A stretch of 64,000 bases of DNA. It comes from Thermus aquaticus. Lineage in GTDB: Bacteria; Deinococcota; Deinococci; Deinococcales; Thermaceae. The translations under genes were made by a program, and so were the position numbers. Under the pieces are notes generated by a model, which saw only the letters and a list, made by a program, of their open reading frames with translations, searched no databases and was not told the origin of the DNA. Below are positions 5,348-60,471 of this stretch, piece after piece (within the stretch, counting starts at the first letter, position 1; each line of letters starts with the position of its first letter). The DNA lies in NCBI RefSeq assembly GCF_001280255.1, contig NZ_LHCI01000106.1:1050508-1114507 (forward strand), given 5' to 3'.

Positions 5348-5413
5348 CCCCGCCGTGGCTCTTGCCACGGCGGGGTATTTAAGTGCCCCACCGCGGCGAA
5401 AGCCGCGGTGGGG
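5348..5413. repeat. two abutting family A palindromes (copies 2 and 3)
   Basis: Two stems lie head to head: CCCCGCCGTGGC/GCCACGGCGGGG (5348-5375) and CCCCACCGCGGC/GCCGCGGTGGGG (5386-5413), joined by a TATTTAAG bridge. Both carry the flanking GGGGCCCC motif on their outer sides, so they are inverted relative to each other. Copy 3 with its AGAAAAGCC tail begins at the nuoN stop codon and could terminate the complex I transcript. Confidence 0.8.
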
Positions 5414-5429
5414 GCCCCAGAAAAGCCTT

Positions 5430-22238: not shown

Positions 22239-24224
22239 TTACGGGCCCAGAAGCCACTCCACGAAGCCGTTGACCACGTCGTTTTCCCCCAGGGCCTCGG
22301 GGTTTTCCAGGACGTGCTCGTAGAAGGCCCGGACCAGGTCGGGGCTTGGGTTCTTGAGGATCTCCTGGACGCTTTTCCCCTGGTAGGGCCCCTTGGGGAG
22401 GGGTGCCGTGAGGGAGGGGGAGGTGGCCAGGGGGGCGGCCTCCTTCAGGGCCTCCAGGGTCCTCTCCAGAAGAAGCCTTTCCCCTTCGGGGCCTAGGGCC
22501 TCCTTGGGGGTGAGGAGGGGGGTTCCCGAGAGGTCCTTGGGCGTGAGGCCTAGGGCATAGAGGCGCCGGGCCAGGCTGGGCGGGCCCACCTCCAGGGGGA
22601 CCAGGGCCTTGGCCTCGCCGTAACGGACCTCGAGGGTGTACCGCCCGGGCTCGGGGAGGGTGAGGGCGGGGGCCACCTCCTTGAGGCCGGCGGTGAGGGG
22701 AGGAAAGCCCAAAGGCTTCTCCGCCCGGCCCACCTCCTCCCCCTCCCGGAAGAGGAGGCTTTCCAGGGGGGCCCGGAGGAGGTAGGGGCGCCCTTCCAGG
22801 CGCACCTCGGGGAAGACCGCCTCCCCGGCGCGGAAGGGCCTCGCCTCCAGGTCCCCGGGGATCAGGGTGAGCTTCTCCAGGAAAAGGCGGAGCTCGCCCC
22901 CTTCCAGCCGGGCCAGGGCCCGCCGGGCGGCAAAGGCGGCCGGGTGCCGGGGGTGGGCCTCCAGGAAGGCCCGGTAGAGGGCTTTGGCCTCGAGCCCTGC
23001 CCGCTCGGCCACGTAGGCCCGGAAGAAGAGGGCAAGGGGCTCCCCCCTCGCCTCCAGGTCCTTAAGGGCCTCCTGGAAATCCTCCCCCTCGTCCAGCCGC
23101 AAAGCCCGGTCGTAGGCGGCCTTGGCCCCCAGGTAGTCCCCGTAGATGGCCCGGAAGAGGCCCAGGTTGTAGTAGGCGGTGGCGTTGGGGTTCAGGGCCA
23201 CCGCCCGCTCCGAGGCCCGGATGGCCCGGGGGAGGTCCCCGGTGAGGTAGAGGGCCCAGCCCAGGTTGGTCCAGTAAAGCCAGGAGTCGGGGCGGAGCCT
23301 TATGGCCTGGAGGAGGGCCTCCTTGGCCTCTTCCCCCTTTCCTTCCTGGAAGGCGGCGAAGCTCACCTCCTCCCAGGCCAGGGGGGACTCGGGGAAGGCC
23401 TCCTTCAGGGCCCGGGCCGAGGCGGGCCAGCGGGGGTCCTCGAGGGCCCTAAGGACCAGGTGGGCGGCGGTGCGCTCCAGGGCGTCCCCGGAGAGGAGGG
23501 CCTCGGCCTCCTTCAGGGCCTCCTCCCGCTTGCCCTCGGCGAAGAGGCGCAGGAGGCCGTAGGCCCGGGGGAGCCTGCCCTGCCAGAAGAGGAGAAGCCT
23601 TTCGGGGAGGAGGCCCAGGAGAAGCCCCGCGCCCCGCCCCTCCCTCAGGTCCAGGGCCGACCGGTGGAGGGGGTCGGGGTCCTCCCCCCGGGCCAGGGCT
23701 TGCAGGCGGGCCTCGTCCCCTTTGGGCGCGGGGAGGGCGCTAAACTTGGGGGCCAGGCCCTCCTTCTGGAGCCAGAGCCAGGCCGCCCCCAGGTTGGCGA
23801 AGAGGCCTTCCTTCACCCCCTCTTTCCCGGCCAGGAAGAGCCTGAGGCCCCTCTCTTCTTCCCGGCCCAGGAGGACCCAGTCCGCCCCGGTGATCTCCCG
23901 GGCCAGCCGGGCCCCCGCCCGGGAGTAAAGCCCCCCCACGAGCTCGTACCCGTCCCGCCAGGGGGGCTCGGGGAGGAGGAGGGCGAGGAGGGTGGGGGGT
24001 GGGGCCTTCAGGCCCTCGGCGAAGGCCTGGGCCAGGGTGTACCCCCTGGGCCCCTCAAAGGGCAGGACCAGGCCCTGGGCCAGGGCCAGGCCCAGGAAGA
24101 GGAAGGGAGCTAAGCACCCCACCGCGGCTTTCGCCGCGGTGGGGGCCCCAGAAAAGCCCTTCCACAGCTCAGACTTGGGCACCCCATGTTGCGAAACCAA
24201 AGTGCGGGCACTTAGCCAGCGCAT
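22239..24224 (-). CDS. TPR-containing exported protein with an in-frame repeat insertion in its signal peptide
   Basis: A 661-residue protein with tetratricopeptide repeats around residues 290-380 (for example SWLYWTNLGWALYLTGDLPRA) and long Leu/Glu/Arg-rich helical regions; probably periplasmic or surface-bound, function unknown. Removing the 102 bp added by the family A element (24113-24212 plus one TA) leaves MRWLAPFLFLGLALAQG, a textbook signal peptide. With the element, 34 extra residues ([13 protein letters not shown]...AAKAAVGCL) stand between MRWL and APFLFLG. The start is secure: TAGAAT lies six bases upstream of the ATG and also contains the wecG-like gene's stop codon. A GTG inside the element could restart translation just before the hydrophobic core. 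The frame is open throughout. Confidence 0.8.
   Translation of the reverse strand: MRWLSARTLVSQHGVPKSELWKGFSGAPTAAKAAVGCLAPFLFLGLALAQGLVLPFEGPRGYTLAQAFAEGLKAPPPTLLALLLPEPPWRDGYELVGGLYSRAGARLAREITGADWVLLGREEERGLRLFLAGKEGVKEGLFANLGAAWLWLQKEGLAPKFSALPAPKGDEARLQALARGEDPDPLHRSALDLREGRGAGLLLGLLPERLLLFWQGRLPRAYGLLRLFAEGKREEALKEAEALLSGDALERTAAHLVLRALEDPRWPASARALKEAFPESPLAWEEVSFAAFQEGKGEEAKEALLQAIRLRPDSWLYWTNLGWALYLTGDLPRAIRASERAVALNPNATAYYNLGLFRAIYGDYLGAKAAYDRALRLDEGEDFQEALKDLEARGEPLALFFRAYVAERAGLEAKALYRAFLEAHPRHPAAFAARRALARLEGGELRLFLEKLTLIPGDLEARPFRAGEAVFPEVRLEGRPYLLRAPLESLLFREGEEVGRAEKPLGFPPLTAGLKEVAPALTLPEPGRYTLEVRYGEAKALVPLEVGPPSLARRLYALGLTPKDLSGTPLLTPKEALGPEGERLLLERTLEALKEAAPLATSPSLTAPLPKGPYQGKSVQEILKNPSPDLVRAFYEHVLENPEALGENDVVNGFVEWLLGP
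24113..24212 (-). mobile_element. family A palindromic element, full copy inside TPR gene
   Basis: A 100-bp unit flanked on both sides by TA. The ends are AGTGCCCGC on the coding strand and AGCACCCCACC on the other, an imperfect terminal inverted repeat. It contains the 12-bp stem CCCCACCGCGGC/GCCGCGGTGGGG (24117-24144), the GGGGCCCC tail and a region reading TTGGGCACCCCATGTTGCG. The element matches the copy at 60240-60339 almost base for base. TA flanks are typical of Tc1/mariner-IS630 insertion; the mobilising enzyme is not in this window. Confidence 0.85.
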
Positions 24225-38291: not shown

Positions 38292-38297
38292 TATACT
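38292..38297 (+). promoter_or_regulatory. -10 box of iscR
   Basis: TATACT six bases before the iscR ATG, overlapping the end of the permease gene. Leaderless spacing. Confidence 0.6.
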
Positions 38298-38303
38298 GGG
38301 GGC

Positions 38304-38750
38304 ATGTGGGTTTCCACGAAGGCCCAGTACGGCCTGAGGGCTCTGGTGGAGATCGGCCTCCGCGCCCCCGAGGCCGTTCCCCTCAAGGAGGTGGCCGAGG
38401 CCCAGGGCATCAGCCAGCACTACCTGGAGCAGATCGCCGCCCAGCTGCGCCGGGCCGGCTTCATCCGTTCCGTGCGGGGGGCCAAGGGAGGGTACCGCCT
38501 GGCCCGGCCCCCGGAGAAGGTGACGGCCCTCGAGGTGGTGGAGGCCCTGGAGGGGAGCCTGGCCCCGGTCTCCTGCATTGAGGACCCGGAGTCCTGCGCC
38601 AAGGTGGGCCAGTGCTCCACGGAGCTCCTCTGGAGGCGGGTGGACCTGGCCATGCGCCAGGTCCTGGGGGGCACTACCCTCAAGGACCTCATTGAGGAGA
38701 GGAGGCTTCTGGAGGCCAGGCGCCCCATCCAGCTGGAGGCCGCTAGCTAA
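38304..38750 (+). CDS. iscR: Rrf2-family regulator (IscR-like)
   Basis: Winged-helix repressor of the Rrf2 family, 148 residues, located in front of a cysteine desulfurase gene. It has STKAQYGLRALVEIGL, the recognition helix SQHYLEQIAAQLRRAGFIRSVRGAKGGYRLARP, and three cysteines spaced as in IscR (CIEDPESCAKVGQC), expected to bind a [2Fe-2S] cluster. It thus probably senses Fe-S demand and controls iscS. Its stop codon TAA is formed where the family A element begins (GCTAGCTAAGTACC), so the original C-terminus may have been different. Confidence 0.86.
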   Translation: MWVSTKAQYGLRALVEIGLRAPEAVPLKEVAEAQGISQHYLEQIAAQLRRAGFIRSVRGAKGGYRLARPPEKVTALEVVEALEGSLAPVSCIEDPESCAKVGQCSTELLWRRVDLAMRQVLGGTTLKDLIEERRLLEARRPIQLEAAS

Positions 38751-38846
38751 GTACCCCACCGCGGCTTTCGCCGCGGCGGGGGCCCCAGAAAAGCCTTTAG
38801 CCCCGACTGGGGCACCCCATGTTGCGAAACTGGAGTGCAGGCACGG
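38750..38846 (+). mobile_element. family A palindromic element between iscR and iscS
   Basis: A 97-bp copy starting AGTACCCCACCGCGGC directly after TA. It keeps the stem (38754-38781), GGGGCCCC, AGAAAAGCC and GGCACCCCATGTTGCGAAAC, but has a 3-bp deletion and a damaged right end (GCAGGCACGG instead of GCGGGCACT). It gives iscR its stop codon and brings an in-frame ATG (38819) ten codons before iscS. It also separates iscS from any earlier regulatory site. Confidence 0.82.
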
Positions 38847-38848
38847 AG

Positions 38849-39967
38849 ATGGTCTACCTGGACTACGCCGCAACCACGCCCGTTGACCCCGAGGTCCTCG
38901 AGGCCATGCGGGAGGTGGAGGGGGTCTTCGGCAACCCCTCTAGCGTCCACCGCTTTGGCCAGGAGGCCAGGAGGGTCCTGGAGGGGGCCAGGGAGAGGGT
39001 GGCAACCCTCCTTGGGGTGCGCCCCCGGGAGGTGGTCTTCACCGCCTCGGGCTCGGAGGCCGATGCCCTGGCCGTCCTGGGGGTGGCCCTGGCCCGGGGC
39101 AAAGGCCACGTGGTCAGCACGGCGGTGGAGCACGCTGCCCTTCTGGGGGCCTTGCGGCTTCTGGAGAGGCTTGGCTTCGCCGTCACCTACCTGAAGCCGG
39201 ACCCCCTGGGCATGGTCTACCCGGAGCAGGTGGCCGAGGCCCTCCGCCCCGACACCTTTTTGGTGAGCGTCATGGCCGCCAACAACGAGCTGGGGAACCT
39301 CTACCCGGTGAGGGCCATGGCCGAGGTGGCCCACGCCCACGGGGCCCTCTTCCACACCGACGCGGTGCAGGCCATAGGCCAGGTGCCCTTCCGCGTGGAC
39401 GAGGTGGGGGCGGACCTGGTCTCCCTGAGCGCCCACAAGTTCTACGGGCCCAAGGGGATCGGGGCCCTTTTGGTGCGCCACGGGGTGGAGCTATTCCCCT
39501 TGGTGCCGGGGAAGCAGGAGGGGGGGAGGCGGGGAGGGACGCCAAGCCCCCTCCTGGCCCACGGCCTGGCGGTGGCCCTGGAGAAGGCCTTGAGGCTCCT
39601 TCCCGAGGAGAGCCAAAGGCTCCTCGCCCTGAGGGCGCGCCTCGAGGCCGGGCTTCTTTCCGTGGAGGGCGTGGAGCTGAACGGCCACCCCAAGGAGCGC
39701 CTGCCCAAGCTGGTGAACGTCACGGTGAAGGGGGCGGATGGGGAGGCGTTGCTCCTCGCCATGGACCTCCTGGGGGTGGCGGTCTCCTCGGGCTCCGCCT
39801 GCTCAGCGGGAAGCCTGGAGCCCTCCCACGTCCTCCTGGCCACAGGCCGCTCCCGGGAGGAGGCCCGGGCCTCCTTGCGCTTCTCCCTGGGGCGCTTCAC
39901 CACCCTGGAGGAGGTGGACCGGGCCATAGAGGCCTTCCGGGAAGCGGTGCGCCGGGCCCGGGCTTAA
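38849..39967 (+). CDS. iscS: cysteine desulfurase
   Basis: PLP enzyme that takes sulfur from cysteine for Fe-S clusters and thiolation. The 372-residue protein starts MVYLDYAATTPVDPEV and has FTASGSEADALAV, NNELGNLYPV, HTDAVQAIGQVPF, the PLP lysine in SLSAHKFYGPKG and the active-site SSGSACSAGSLEPSHVL. The ATG at 38849 has GGAG immediately before it, so an alternative ATG inside the repeat (38819) is possible and would add MLRNWSAGTE. The stop codon TAA falls at the start of another repeat. Confidence 0.93.
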   Translation: MVYLDYAATTPVDPEVLEAMREVEGVFGNPSSVHRFGQEARRVLEGARERVATLLGVRPREVVFTASGSEADALAVLGVALARGKGHVVSTAVEHAALLGALRLLERLGFAVTYLKPDPLGMVYPEQVAEALRPDTFLVSVMAANNELGNLYPVRAMAEVAHAHGALFHTDAVQAIGQVPFRVDEVGADLVSLSAHKFYGPKGIGALLVRHGVELFPLVPGKQEGGRRGGTPSPLLAHGLAVALEKALRLLPEESQRLLALRARLEAGLLSVEGVELNGHPKERLPKLVNVTVKGADGEALLLAMDLLGVAVSSGSACSAGSLEPSHVLLATGRSREEARASLRFSLGRFTTLEEVDRAIEAFREAVRRARA

Positions 39968-40008
39968 GTACCCCGCCGTGGCTTTTGCCGCGGCGGGGGC
40001 CCCAAAAG
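39966..40008 (+). repeat. family A palindrome, copy 7
   Basis: TTAAGTACCCC begins at the iscS stop codon, followed by the stem CCCCGCCGTGGC/GCCGCGGCGGGG (39971-39982 / 39987-39998, one wobble-type mismatch) and GGCCCCAAAAG. It lies between convergent iscS and fadD and probably ends both messages. Confidence 0.78.
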
Positions 40009-40021
40009 CGTGTCGGAGCCT

Positions 40022-41695
40022 CTAGGCCTTTTTGGCGAACTCGTCCCTAAGCTCCCGTCTCAGGATCTTCCCCACGCTGGACTTGGGGAGGCCCTCCCGG
40101 AACTGGATGATGCGGGGGACCTTGTAGGCGGCCAGGTTTGCCCGGCAGAAGGCCTCAATGTCCTTTTCCGTGACCTTGCCCCGGTACGCTTCCTTGAGGA
40201 CGATGAAGGCGGCCACGGTCTCCCCGCGGTAGGGGTCGGGGACGCCCACCACGGCGGCCTCCTGGACGGCCTCGTGCCCGTAGAGGACCTCTTCCACCTC
40301 GCGGGGGTAGATGTTGTACCCGCCGGCGATGATCATGTCCTTTTTGCGGTCCACGATGTAGAAGTAGCCGTCCTCATCCATGCGGGCCAGGTCGCCGGTG
40401 AAGAGCCAGCCGTCCTTGAGGGCCTTTTGGGTTTCCTCCGGCCGGTTCCAGTAGCCCTTCATGACGTTGGGGCCCTTGACGATGAGCTCGCCCACCTCCC
40501 CCAGGGGCACCTCCTTACCCTCCTCGTCCACCACCTTGGCCTCCACGCTGGGCAGAGGCATGCCAATGGAGCCCTTCTTGATGGGCCCCAGCACGGGGTT
40601 GGAGTGGGTCACGGGGCTGGCCTCGGAGAGGCCGTAGCCCTCGAGGAGCCGGGCCCCGGTGATCTCCTCAAAGCGCTTGGCCACCTCCACCGGTAAGGGC
40701 GCCGCTCCCGAGAGGCAGATGCGGATGCTCTTGACGTTCCGCTTCTCAATCCCGGGGAAGTTGTTGAAGGCCACGTAGAGGGTGGGGACGCCGGGGAAGT
40801 GGGTCACCTGGTGCTTCTCAATGGCCTCCACCACGGCGTGGATCTCGGGCCTGGGCAGGAGGACGATCTTGTACCCGGAATAGAGGCCGTAGTTCATGGC
40901 CACGGTCATGCCGTAGACGTGGAAGAAGGGCAAAGCCCCCAGCATGACCCCCTTGCCCAGAAGGTCCCGGGAGGTGGAGTCCCAGGCGTCAATCTGCAGG
41001 ACGTTGGCCACCAGGTTTTTGTGGGTCAGCATGGCGCCCTTGGAGATCCCCGTGGTCCCCCCGGTGTACTGCAAAAGGGCCAGGTCCTCGGGGTCCGAGG
41101 CGTGGGGGGTGGCGGGGGGGCGCTTCAGGAGGTCCAAAAAGGCGTGGAGGCCTTCCCGCCTGGGGAAGCCCAGGGGGAGCCGGTCCTTCCTGGCCTTCAG
41201 GGGGTAGAGGAGGTTCTTGGGGAAGGGGAGGAAGTCCTTGATCCCCGTGACCACCACTCGTTTCACCGGGGTCTCCCGTTCCACTTCCAGGAAGCGGGGC
41301 AGGAGGTGGTCCAGGATGACGAGGGTTTCGGCCCCGGCGTCCTGGAGCTGGTGCCTCAGTTCCCTCGGGGTGTAGAGGGGGTTGACGTTGACCCCCACGC
41401 CCCCCGCTAAGAGGGTGCCAAAGAAAGCGATGACGAACTGGGGGGTGTTGGGGAGCATGACGGCCACCCGGTCGCCGGGTTTTATCCCCAGTTCCTTTAG
41501 CCCCCGGGCGAAGCGTAGGGAGAGGTCCCAGAGCTCCTTGTAGGTCAGGGTCTTGCCCAGAAACTCCAGGGCTACGTTGTTGGGAAAGCGGCGGGCGCTG
41601 TCCTCCAGGAAACGCCATAGGGGAATGGAGGGGACCTCCACCTCGTGGGGCACGCTGGGATCGTAGTGGGCCAGCCAGGGTTTCTCCTTCACCAT
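40022..41695 (-). CDS. fadD: long-chain fatty acid-CoA ligase
   Basis: Adenylate-forming enzyme that activates fatty acids as CoA thioesters. The 557-residue protein has the phosphate loop LQYTGGTTGISKGAML, the linker GYGLSEASPV, DGWLFTGDLARMDEDGYFYIVDRKKDMIIAGGYNIYP and the C-terminal lysine in PKSSVGKILRREL, as in the structurally known Thermus enzyme. Its promoter has TTGAAC-17-TAGGGT upstream. The true chain length preference is not visible. Confidence 0.9.
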   Translation of the reverse strand: MVKEKPWLAHYDPSVPHEVEVPSIPLWRFLEDSARRFPNNVALEFLGKTLTYKELWDLSLRFARGLKELGIKPGDRVAVMLPNTPQFVIAFFGTLLAGGVGVNVNPLYTPRELRHQLQDAGAETLVILDHLLPRFLEVERETPVKRVVVTGIKDFLPFPKNLLYPLKARKDRLPLGFPRREGLHAFLDLLKRPPATPHASDPEDLALLQYTGGTTGISKGAMLTHKNLVANVLQIDAWDSTSRDLLGKGVMLGALPFFHVYGMTVAMNYGLYSGYKIVLLPRPEIHAVVEAIEKHQVTHFPGVPTLYVAFNNFPGIEKRNVKSIRICLSGAAPLPVEVAKRFEEITGARLLEGYGLSEASPVTHSNPVLGPIKKGSIGMPLPSVEAKVVDEEGKEVPLGEVGELIVKGPNVMKGYWNRPEETQKALKDGWLFTGDLARMDEDGYFYIVDRKKDMIIAGGYNIYPREVEEVLYGHEAVQEAAVVGVPDPYRGETVAAFIVLKEAYRGKVTEKDIEAFCRANLAAYKVPRIIQFREGLPKSSVGKILRRELRDEFAKKA

Positions 41696-59845: not shown

Positions 59846-60471
59846 AGGGGGGGATGGTAGAGGAGTTCGGCCTGGGGAAGGAGGAGGGGGGCCACCCTTT
59901 CCCCCCTGGCCACGGAAAAGCTCTCCCCGTAGACCCTCCCCTCCGGCCTCCTAAAGACCTGAAGGGCCTTATGGGTGAGGAGCCGGACCTCGGGAACCCC
60001 GGCCTCGGCGTAGAGGGGAAGCTTTTTCTCCCGGTCCCAGGCCTCCGTGGAGAGGCTCACCTCCACCAGGAGGAGGACGTCCTTGGGGCGGGGGTGGTCC
60101 TGGGTGTAGAAGTCTTCCCGGGGCCTAAGGAGGAGGTCGGGGAGGGGCAGGCTGTGGGGGGAGAGGTAAAGGGGGCTTTGCACCCGGATCTGGGCCAGGC
60201 CCTGGACCTTGGGGGCTAGGGCGTGGAGGAGCCAGTCTAAGTACCCCACCGCGGCATTCGCCGCGGTGGGGGCCCCAGAAAATCCCTTCCACAGCCCCAA
60301 CTTGGGCACCCCATGTTGCGAAACCAAAGTGCGGGCACTTAGGAGCCCGGCGTGCTGGCTGGAAGGGGGGGTCATCTCGTAGACCTCGCCGTCCAAAAGC
60401 TCCAGGCGGGCCTCGGGGTGGAGGCTGGCCAGGGCCAGAACCTCCTCCACCCGGAACCGGTGCCGCACCAT
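59842..60471 (-). CDS. Uma2/DUF820 family nuclease-like protein with an in-frame repeat insertion
   Basis: Restriction endonuclease-like fold protein of the Uma2 (DUF820) family, common in Thermus and cyanobacteria, function unknown. Normal segments are [19 protein letters not shown], then [73 protein letters not shown] with the E-V core. Between HAGL and DWLL lie 34 residues ([13 protein letters not shown]...AANAAVGYL) encoded by the family A element at 60240-60339; the frame stays open. Start chosen at 60471 ([10 protein letters not shown]), seven bases after TATAAT. The position of the insert, just past the N-terminal substrate segment, may disturb folding. Confidence 0.8.
60240..60339 (-). 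mobile_element. family A palindromic element, full copy inside Uma2 gene
   Basis: 100 bp flanked by TA (60238-60239 and 60340-60341), same structure and orientation relative to the coding strand as the copy at 24113-24212. On the coding strand it runs AGTGCCCGCACTTTGG ... GTGGGGTACT. The stem is CCCCACCGCGGC/GCCGCGGTGGGG (60244-60255 / 60260-60271) around a four-base loop. Differences from the TPR copy are only a handful of bases. Confidence 0.87.

Follow-up and report, generated by a model that had tools for sequence, protein, structure and literature searches.

A MITE copy at the iscR stop codon of Thermus aquaticus and its family in the genus Thermus

Several families of short bacterial repeats have been described that resemble the repeat analyzed in this work. 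One of them is RUP, the pneumococcus repeat unit, which according to the consulted part of PMC2229807 is 107 bp long and thought to be moved by IS630-Spn1; as described there, it shares with the Thermus repeat its size, IS630-type ends, a TA target and an intergenic location, but it belongs to another host and has stops in all six frames, whereas the Thermus repeat holds a short recurring frame. The enterobacterial RU-1/ERIC and the Neisseria Correia/NEMIS elements appear in the relevant parts of PMC2229807 and PMC2759123 as small mobile stem-loop repeats, as the Thermus repeat appears to be, with frames that can be fused to host genes, and a TA duplication is stated there for RU-1/ERIC; likened by description, they differ from the case reported here, in which the fusion is N-terminal and arises because the element has lost its stop. 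MITEPsy1 of Pseudomonas syringae is similar in length (100 bp) and target (CTAG or YTAA), but the portion of PMC3189936 dealing with it gives a 4-bp duplication and suggests that it derives from the IS5-family element ISPsy2. For Thermus, the consulted section of PMC6352166 tabulates ISTth6 as an IS630 element with a 2-bp DR, and names MITE-Hunter merely as a method. By comparison with the descriptions in PMC2229807 and PMC2759123, the Thermus repeat would represent a MITE family that is new but of the same kind as RUP, ERIC and Correia; among the titles and abstract openings listed in a search of openly accessible papers, none gives an account of it.

The window analyzed here is a stretch of 64,000 nucleotides of the Thermus aquaticus genome, and the repeat is an approximately 100-bp MITE that is present in dozens of copies in this genome, one of them at the end of iscR. 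The body of this copy spans 38750-38845 on the forward strand, with altered right terminal bases, and in most pairs family similarity ends at 38844. A preliminary description of the region had extended the repeat over 38748-38851, but 38849-38851 are the ordinary ATG of iscS and not part of the element. At least 40 places in the own genome match most of the repeat (best non-self E value 5.4e-33, with 40 of 109 candidates scored), a number far above the chance expectation in the own-genome search, and at least nine additional short reverse-strand matches correspond to the element hairpin. Matches were also found in 19 of 27 Thermus genomes, the own genome included, with only part of the candidates scored in the richest genomes. 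An exact-pattern scan of the genome collection recovered 67 stretches, all of them titled Thermus or Thermaceae; the matching plasmid (nine) and phage (two) records are all from Thermus, and one matching viral contig has no named host.

The repeat has the properties of a MITE, since it is short, multi-copy, devoid of a transposase and bounded by the terminal inverted repeats (TA)AGTACCCC and GGGCACT(TA), with (TA)AGTRCCC as the family end consensus. Lengths and targets were counted on copies with both ends recognizable, 32 in the own genome and 56 elsewhere. The length is 104 bp, including both TAs, in 19 of the 32 own-genome copies, and the targets are of the YTAR type: CTAG in 15 and TTAG in 9 of the 32, and CTAG in 25 and TTAG in 15 of the 56 at loci of the wider genome and viral searches. 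For comparison, CTAG and TTAG account for 6.3% and 5.4% of the TA sites of the window. The window itself holds two further complete copies, at 24111-24214 and 60238-60341, and a match to the hairpin part at 5380-5418. At three loci (L070, L072 and L074) a MITE copy is cut near ATGTTGC and is then followed by one common other repeat (ATGTATCTTGCCCTCTGAGGGAGGTCCTACC...). Three loci of T. arciformis (L127, L131 and L174) carry paired MITE hairpin ends, arranged head-to-head and meeting at GTACTTAAGTAC, and their sequence looks as if the terminal TA of one MITE had served as the target of another.

Mobility of the family can be read from empty sites of two other copies. At locus L079, seven of 24 relatives (G018, G005, G021, G010, G011, G006 and G024) have a single TA in the context GC-TA-GA or similar, and therefore the insertion duplicated the TA; a single TA with one neighboring base changed is present in G019 and G009, and 15 others carry other sequence. 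In T. aquaticus, each end of the L079 copy coincides with the TAA stop of a coding-like frame, so two convergent genes had one TA in common before the insertion. The TA is likewise duplicated at L011, where single-TA junctions were found in three of 27 rows (L202, L205 and L208), with L197 and L213 matched on one side only and the remaining non-empty rows carrying longer or other sequence. The copy at iscR is an eroded family member not bounded by two intact ends, its right TTA reading GGA, and its own TA duplication is not visible because the right TA is not intact.

A profile search for DDE_3 (PF13358) gave no match in T. aquaticus, and thus no partner transposase was seen in this genome; across the genus, 17 of 27 genomes have PF13358 matches, 14 of them above the cut-off. 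Three genomes (G025, G002 and G026) harbor a 1060-bp IS with TAAGT(G/A)CC ends. The copies that were read are flanked by a TA on either side, and one of them shows two open frames; the IS has a 91% match on a plasmid of T. thermophilus HB8, in a stretch that carries the annotation ISTth6, family IS630. The right end of the MITE is identical to one end of this ISTth6-like element at 22 of 35 positions (14 of 26 inner ones; shuffle p ~5e-4), which is the best result among the four end pairs compared. Both share the TAAGTGCC... end, the TA at both ends and CAACATGG at the same distance from the end, and in the IS an ATG inside CAACATGG is found close to where the first open transposase frame begins. 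At the left end of the MITE, the terminal bases alone agree with the IS (inner positions 8/26 and 6/26, p 0.17 and 0.51), and the two elements differ in that ISTth6 is a full IS with a transposase, whereas the MITE has none and a different left half. IS630 elements prefer CTAG-like TA targets, and the TA, CTAG-like targets of the MITE, as seen in the L079 and L011 empty sites and in the target counts, fit this preference. Its ends and target thus suggest that the MITE may have been moved by an IS630/Tc1-type transposase related to that of ISTth6.

The gene upstream of the MITE copy, iscR (38304-38750, forward strand), encodes a protein of 148 amino acids that is 91-97% identical to its counterparts in the Thermus relatives giving near full-length matches. 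The hexamer TATACT at 38292-38297 on the same strand, 6 nt 5' of the iscR ATG, is likely the -10 box of its promoter; it is found before iscR in 22 of 24 Thermus rows, with TATAAT in G005 and TATATT in G012, and was unreported by a sigma-70 promoter scan. From region 38292-38303, the iscR transcript is probably almost leaderless. As read from the window, the protein ends in LEAAS followed by TAA (38748-38750), whose first two bases (38748-38749, unstranded) would be the left copy of the TA target, given the TA duplication at the empty sites of another copy. The preliminary description held that this stop is formed by the target TA plus the first A of the element, and this is literally correct, as the family left end confirms. 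The further claim that the repeat provides the iscR stop does not survive comparison with the element-free sister genome G018, which reads GCTAGC-TAA-ATGGCC, and with G012, which reads GGT-TAA-ATG. Because G018 has the same TAA with no element at iscR, the stop could have existed without the repeat, and the TAA in these two genomes rules out the element as its sole source as originally stated. The insertion would have altered at most the last stop base, namely if the empty site was CTAG, and whether that site was TAA or CTAG, the length of IscR is kept, so that IscR itself was presumably unaffected.

The iscS gene probably extends from its native ATG at 38849-38851 to the TAA at 39965-39967 (38849-39967, forward strand), as in relatives the start lies at the YLDY codons or a few codons 5' of them. 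Junctions, tree and iscS ends were compared in 24 Thermus rows plus G028, the other three of the 27 Thermus genomes (G016, G020 and G024) having no full-length iscR match. Among the 24 genomes with a readable junction, this element separates iscR from iscS only in that of T. aquaticus (G000). G018 is its sister in the iscR plus iscS tree (support 100/99), and it is this sister species, rather than another strain of T. aquaticus, from which we infer the empty iscR site. The distance from the iscR stop to the iscS start is 98 nt in the window and 0 nt in both G018 and G012; these two genomes, which lack the element, share the stop but not the spacing, and the statement that the element moves iscS away from iscR stands. 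Nine of the 23 other Thermus genomes likewise have a long gap, with 80-147 nt separating the YLDY codons from the iscR stop, which indicates that the spacing by itself is tolerated. A different but related insertion of about 60 bp, with GTACCC and GGGGGCCCC motifs, is located at the same iscR stop in G003 (L047), one of these nine. The long gaps of G001 and G002, which begin with TTAAGT, might hold an element remnant, and no element copy was seen by eye in the six other long-gap genomes.

Taken together, these comparisons suggest that the MITE inserted at the TA of a stop that ended iscR and adjoined the start of iscS, in an ancestral junction resembling GCTAGC-TA(A/G)-ATG. Since both MITE ends begin with AG after the target TA, insertion into TAA or TAG would rebuild a TAA, whichever the strand, and the upstream protein would therefore keep its length. 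Complete copies adjoin the stop of a coding-like ORF in 21 of 32 cases in T. aquaticus and in 24 of 53 elsewhere (copies with both ends recognizable, the 53 also with 400 bases on each side), whereas 9.8 (p 5e-5) and 16.6 (p 0.02), respectively, were expected from non-genic sites with the same tetranucleotide. Six of the 32 complete copies adjoin stops at both ends, i.e. they lie between convergent genes. When the rules were relaxed, a coding-like stop adjoined 28 of 48 complete or partial copies, against 35 of 1124 TAA/TAG trinucleotides in the control. These figures come from a home-made ORF scorer and a 64-kb reference, in versions of 32 stop and 164 intergenic TA sites or 31 and 227, and for this reason the excess is not leaned on here. 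A strong stop preference beyond target choice was rejected as an explanation, the excess being clear in T. aquaticus and marginal elsewhere. Target choice and avoidance of gene interiors explain much of the stop placement, and the AG-initial ends explain the harmless landing.

The frequent and exact placement at gene stops, and the excess in T. aquaticus over the same-tetranucleotide sites, are also what would be expected if the repeat were not mobile but a module encoded by the host to serve as stop codon or terminator. Such a module is very hard to reconcile with the TA duplications at clean empty sites, with the terminal repeats and IS-like end, with the many copies away from stops and with the weakness of the excess in other records, and we consider it highly improbable.

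A second element-related feature concerns the start of iscS. In agreement with the preliminary description, the element contains an in-frame ATG at 38819, ten codons before iscS, from which a micro-ORF (38819-38848, forward strand) reads MLRNWSAGTE and continues into MVYLDYAATT. The family version of this micro-ORF, [M/V][L/W]RNQxAGT, is in most cases terminated by the TAG of the target, and the in-frame fusion to iscS results from loss of this stop in the window copy, in which the terminal TTA reads GGA (38845-38847). Within the diverged right end (38830-38847, forward strand), the window copy departs from the family at 6 of 18 positions versus 4 of 82 in the rest of the copy (Fisher p 0.002, for one copy picked after the fact), whereas in 33 other copies on average 9.4% of the right-end positions (53/566) and 7.5% of the remaining ones (209/2778) are changed, and copy L029 has more right-end changes than the window copy. 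The predicted Shine-Dalgarno pairing is -6.3 kcal/mol for the start at 38819 (family -2.4) and -5.9 kcal/mol for the native start at 38849 (family -4.3). A strong Shine-Dalgarno for the native start was looked for and rejected, as the sites are weak and the best pairing is 13 nt away. Weak pairing at both starts favors neither of them, and 38849 is the likelier one given that iscS of the relatives begins there or close by.

The cluster of right-end changes and the fusion could nevertheless reflect selection rather than drift. The element would then be part of iscS control, with iscS starting at 38819, a 10-residue element-derived N terminus and a stop removed by selection. The in-frame fusion itself, the concentration of changes at the right end, a pairing before 38819 better than that of the family sequence and the variation of IscS N termini by several residues at Thermus junctions are in line with this proposal, but pairing improved before the native start too, this copy was singled out in hindsight and is surpassed by L029 in right-end changes, and the extension is known from one strain of the species; on balance, we regard it as unlikely. 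Since YTAR coincides with the stops TAG and TAA in a TA-poor, GC-rich genome, it can further be proposed that the family, by its target and AG ends, is built for harmless stop landing and that its micro-ORF was recruited to give a chimeric IscS uncoupled from IscR, a scenario that we find quite improbable. Our preferred interpretation is that iscS starts mainly at 38849 and that the right end of the MITE changed later, from TTA to GGA, and that this joined a 9-codon micro-ORF to iscS, most probably by chance.

The left part of the element holds a GC hairpin (38754-38781, forward strand; loop UUUC), and a 43-nt fold comprising it reaches -25.9 kcal/mol (z -3.93), a stability matched by none of 200 shuffles. 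The fold of the 100-nt element stands out less (7 of 200 shuffles as stable), and the 131-nt junction folds modestly better than its shuffles (z -1.74, 8 of 200 as stable). Among 74 copies across the genus, collected by a search that set no pairing condition on five stem positions, there are 22 distinct stems; of the 110 pairs possible in them, 101 are formed, versus a shuffle mean of 80 and a maximum of 90, values uncorrected for the kinship of the copies. The sequence after the stem, GCCCCAGAAAA, has no U-tract, and 0 intrinsic terminator sites were found. Both an intrinsic terminator and an internal promoter in the element were considered and rejected, as neither terminator nor promoter rules gave a match; the silence of the promoter rule is weak evidence because it also missed the TATACT before iscR.

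A second, partial element, with left end and hairpin (39965-40003, forward strand), is located exactly at the iscS stop. In T. aquaticus the gene ends with TTAAGTACCCC and the partial element, versus CCTAGGCC in the element-free sister G018, and the partial element faces a convergent gene ending at 40022. Hairpin-type elements are also present at the iscS stop of G005, G009, G015 and G025 among the 24 Thermus rows, which suggests that this stop may be a recurrent landing site.

The preliminary description had proposed that the hairpin could uncouple or attenuate iscS transcription. The existence of the hairpin is confirmed, and copies throughout the genus preserve its pairing, but attenuation remains a guess, since a U-tract and a terminator-rule match are both missing. 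Attenuation or processing of the iscR-iscS transcript, uncoupling the desulfurase from the regulator, would be consistent with the stability of the hairpin, with the conserved pairing of the distinct stems and with the second element hairpin directly after iscS. However, besides the absence of terminator-like sites, the whole junction is only modestly more stable than its shuffles, stem pairing may be kept for transposition or mirror the kinship of the copies, and some copies lie between convergent genes, so that this function is conceivable but doubtful. Any regulatory consequence of the element between the genes for the Fe-S regulator and the desulfurase is hypothetical.

All of these results are very probably accounted for by an IS630/Tc1-type MITE that inserted into the stop TA of iscR and broke the spacing and coupling to iscS, with a later fusion that was most likely accidental. 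The iscS gene would still be co-transcribed from the iscR promoter, and the tight coupling of iscR stop and iscS start would have been broken by the 98 nt with the hairpin. The exact stop placement of repeats in GC-rich Thermus can thereby be explained by target choice and self-restoring stops, with no need to invoke a regulatory role. The element-free sister, the element-bearing genome and the relatives with other gaps constitute a natural set for iscR-iscS spacing and coupling, and elements of this kind are located at the stops of the iscR/iscS pair in several Thermus genomes.
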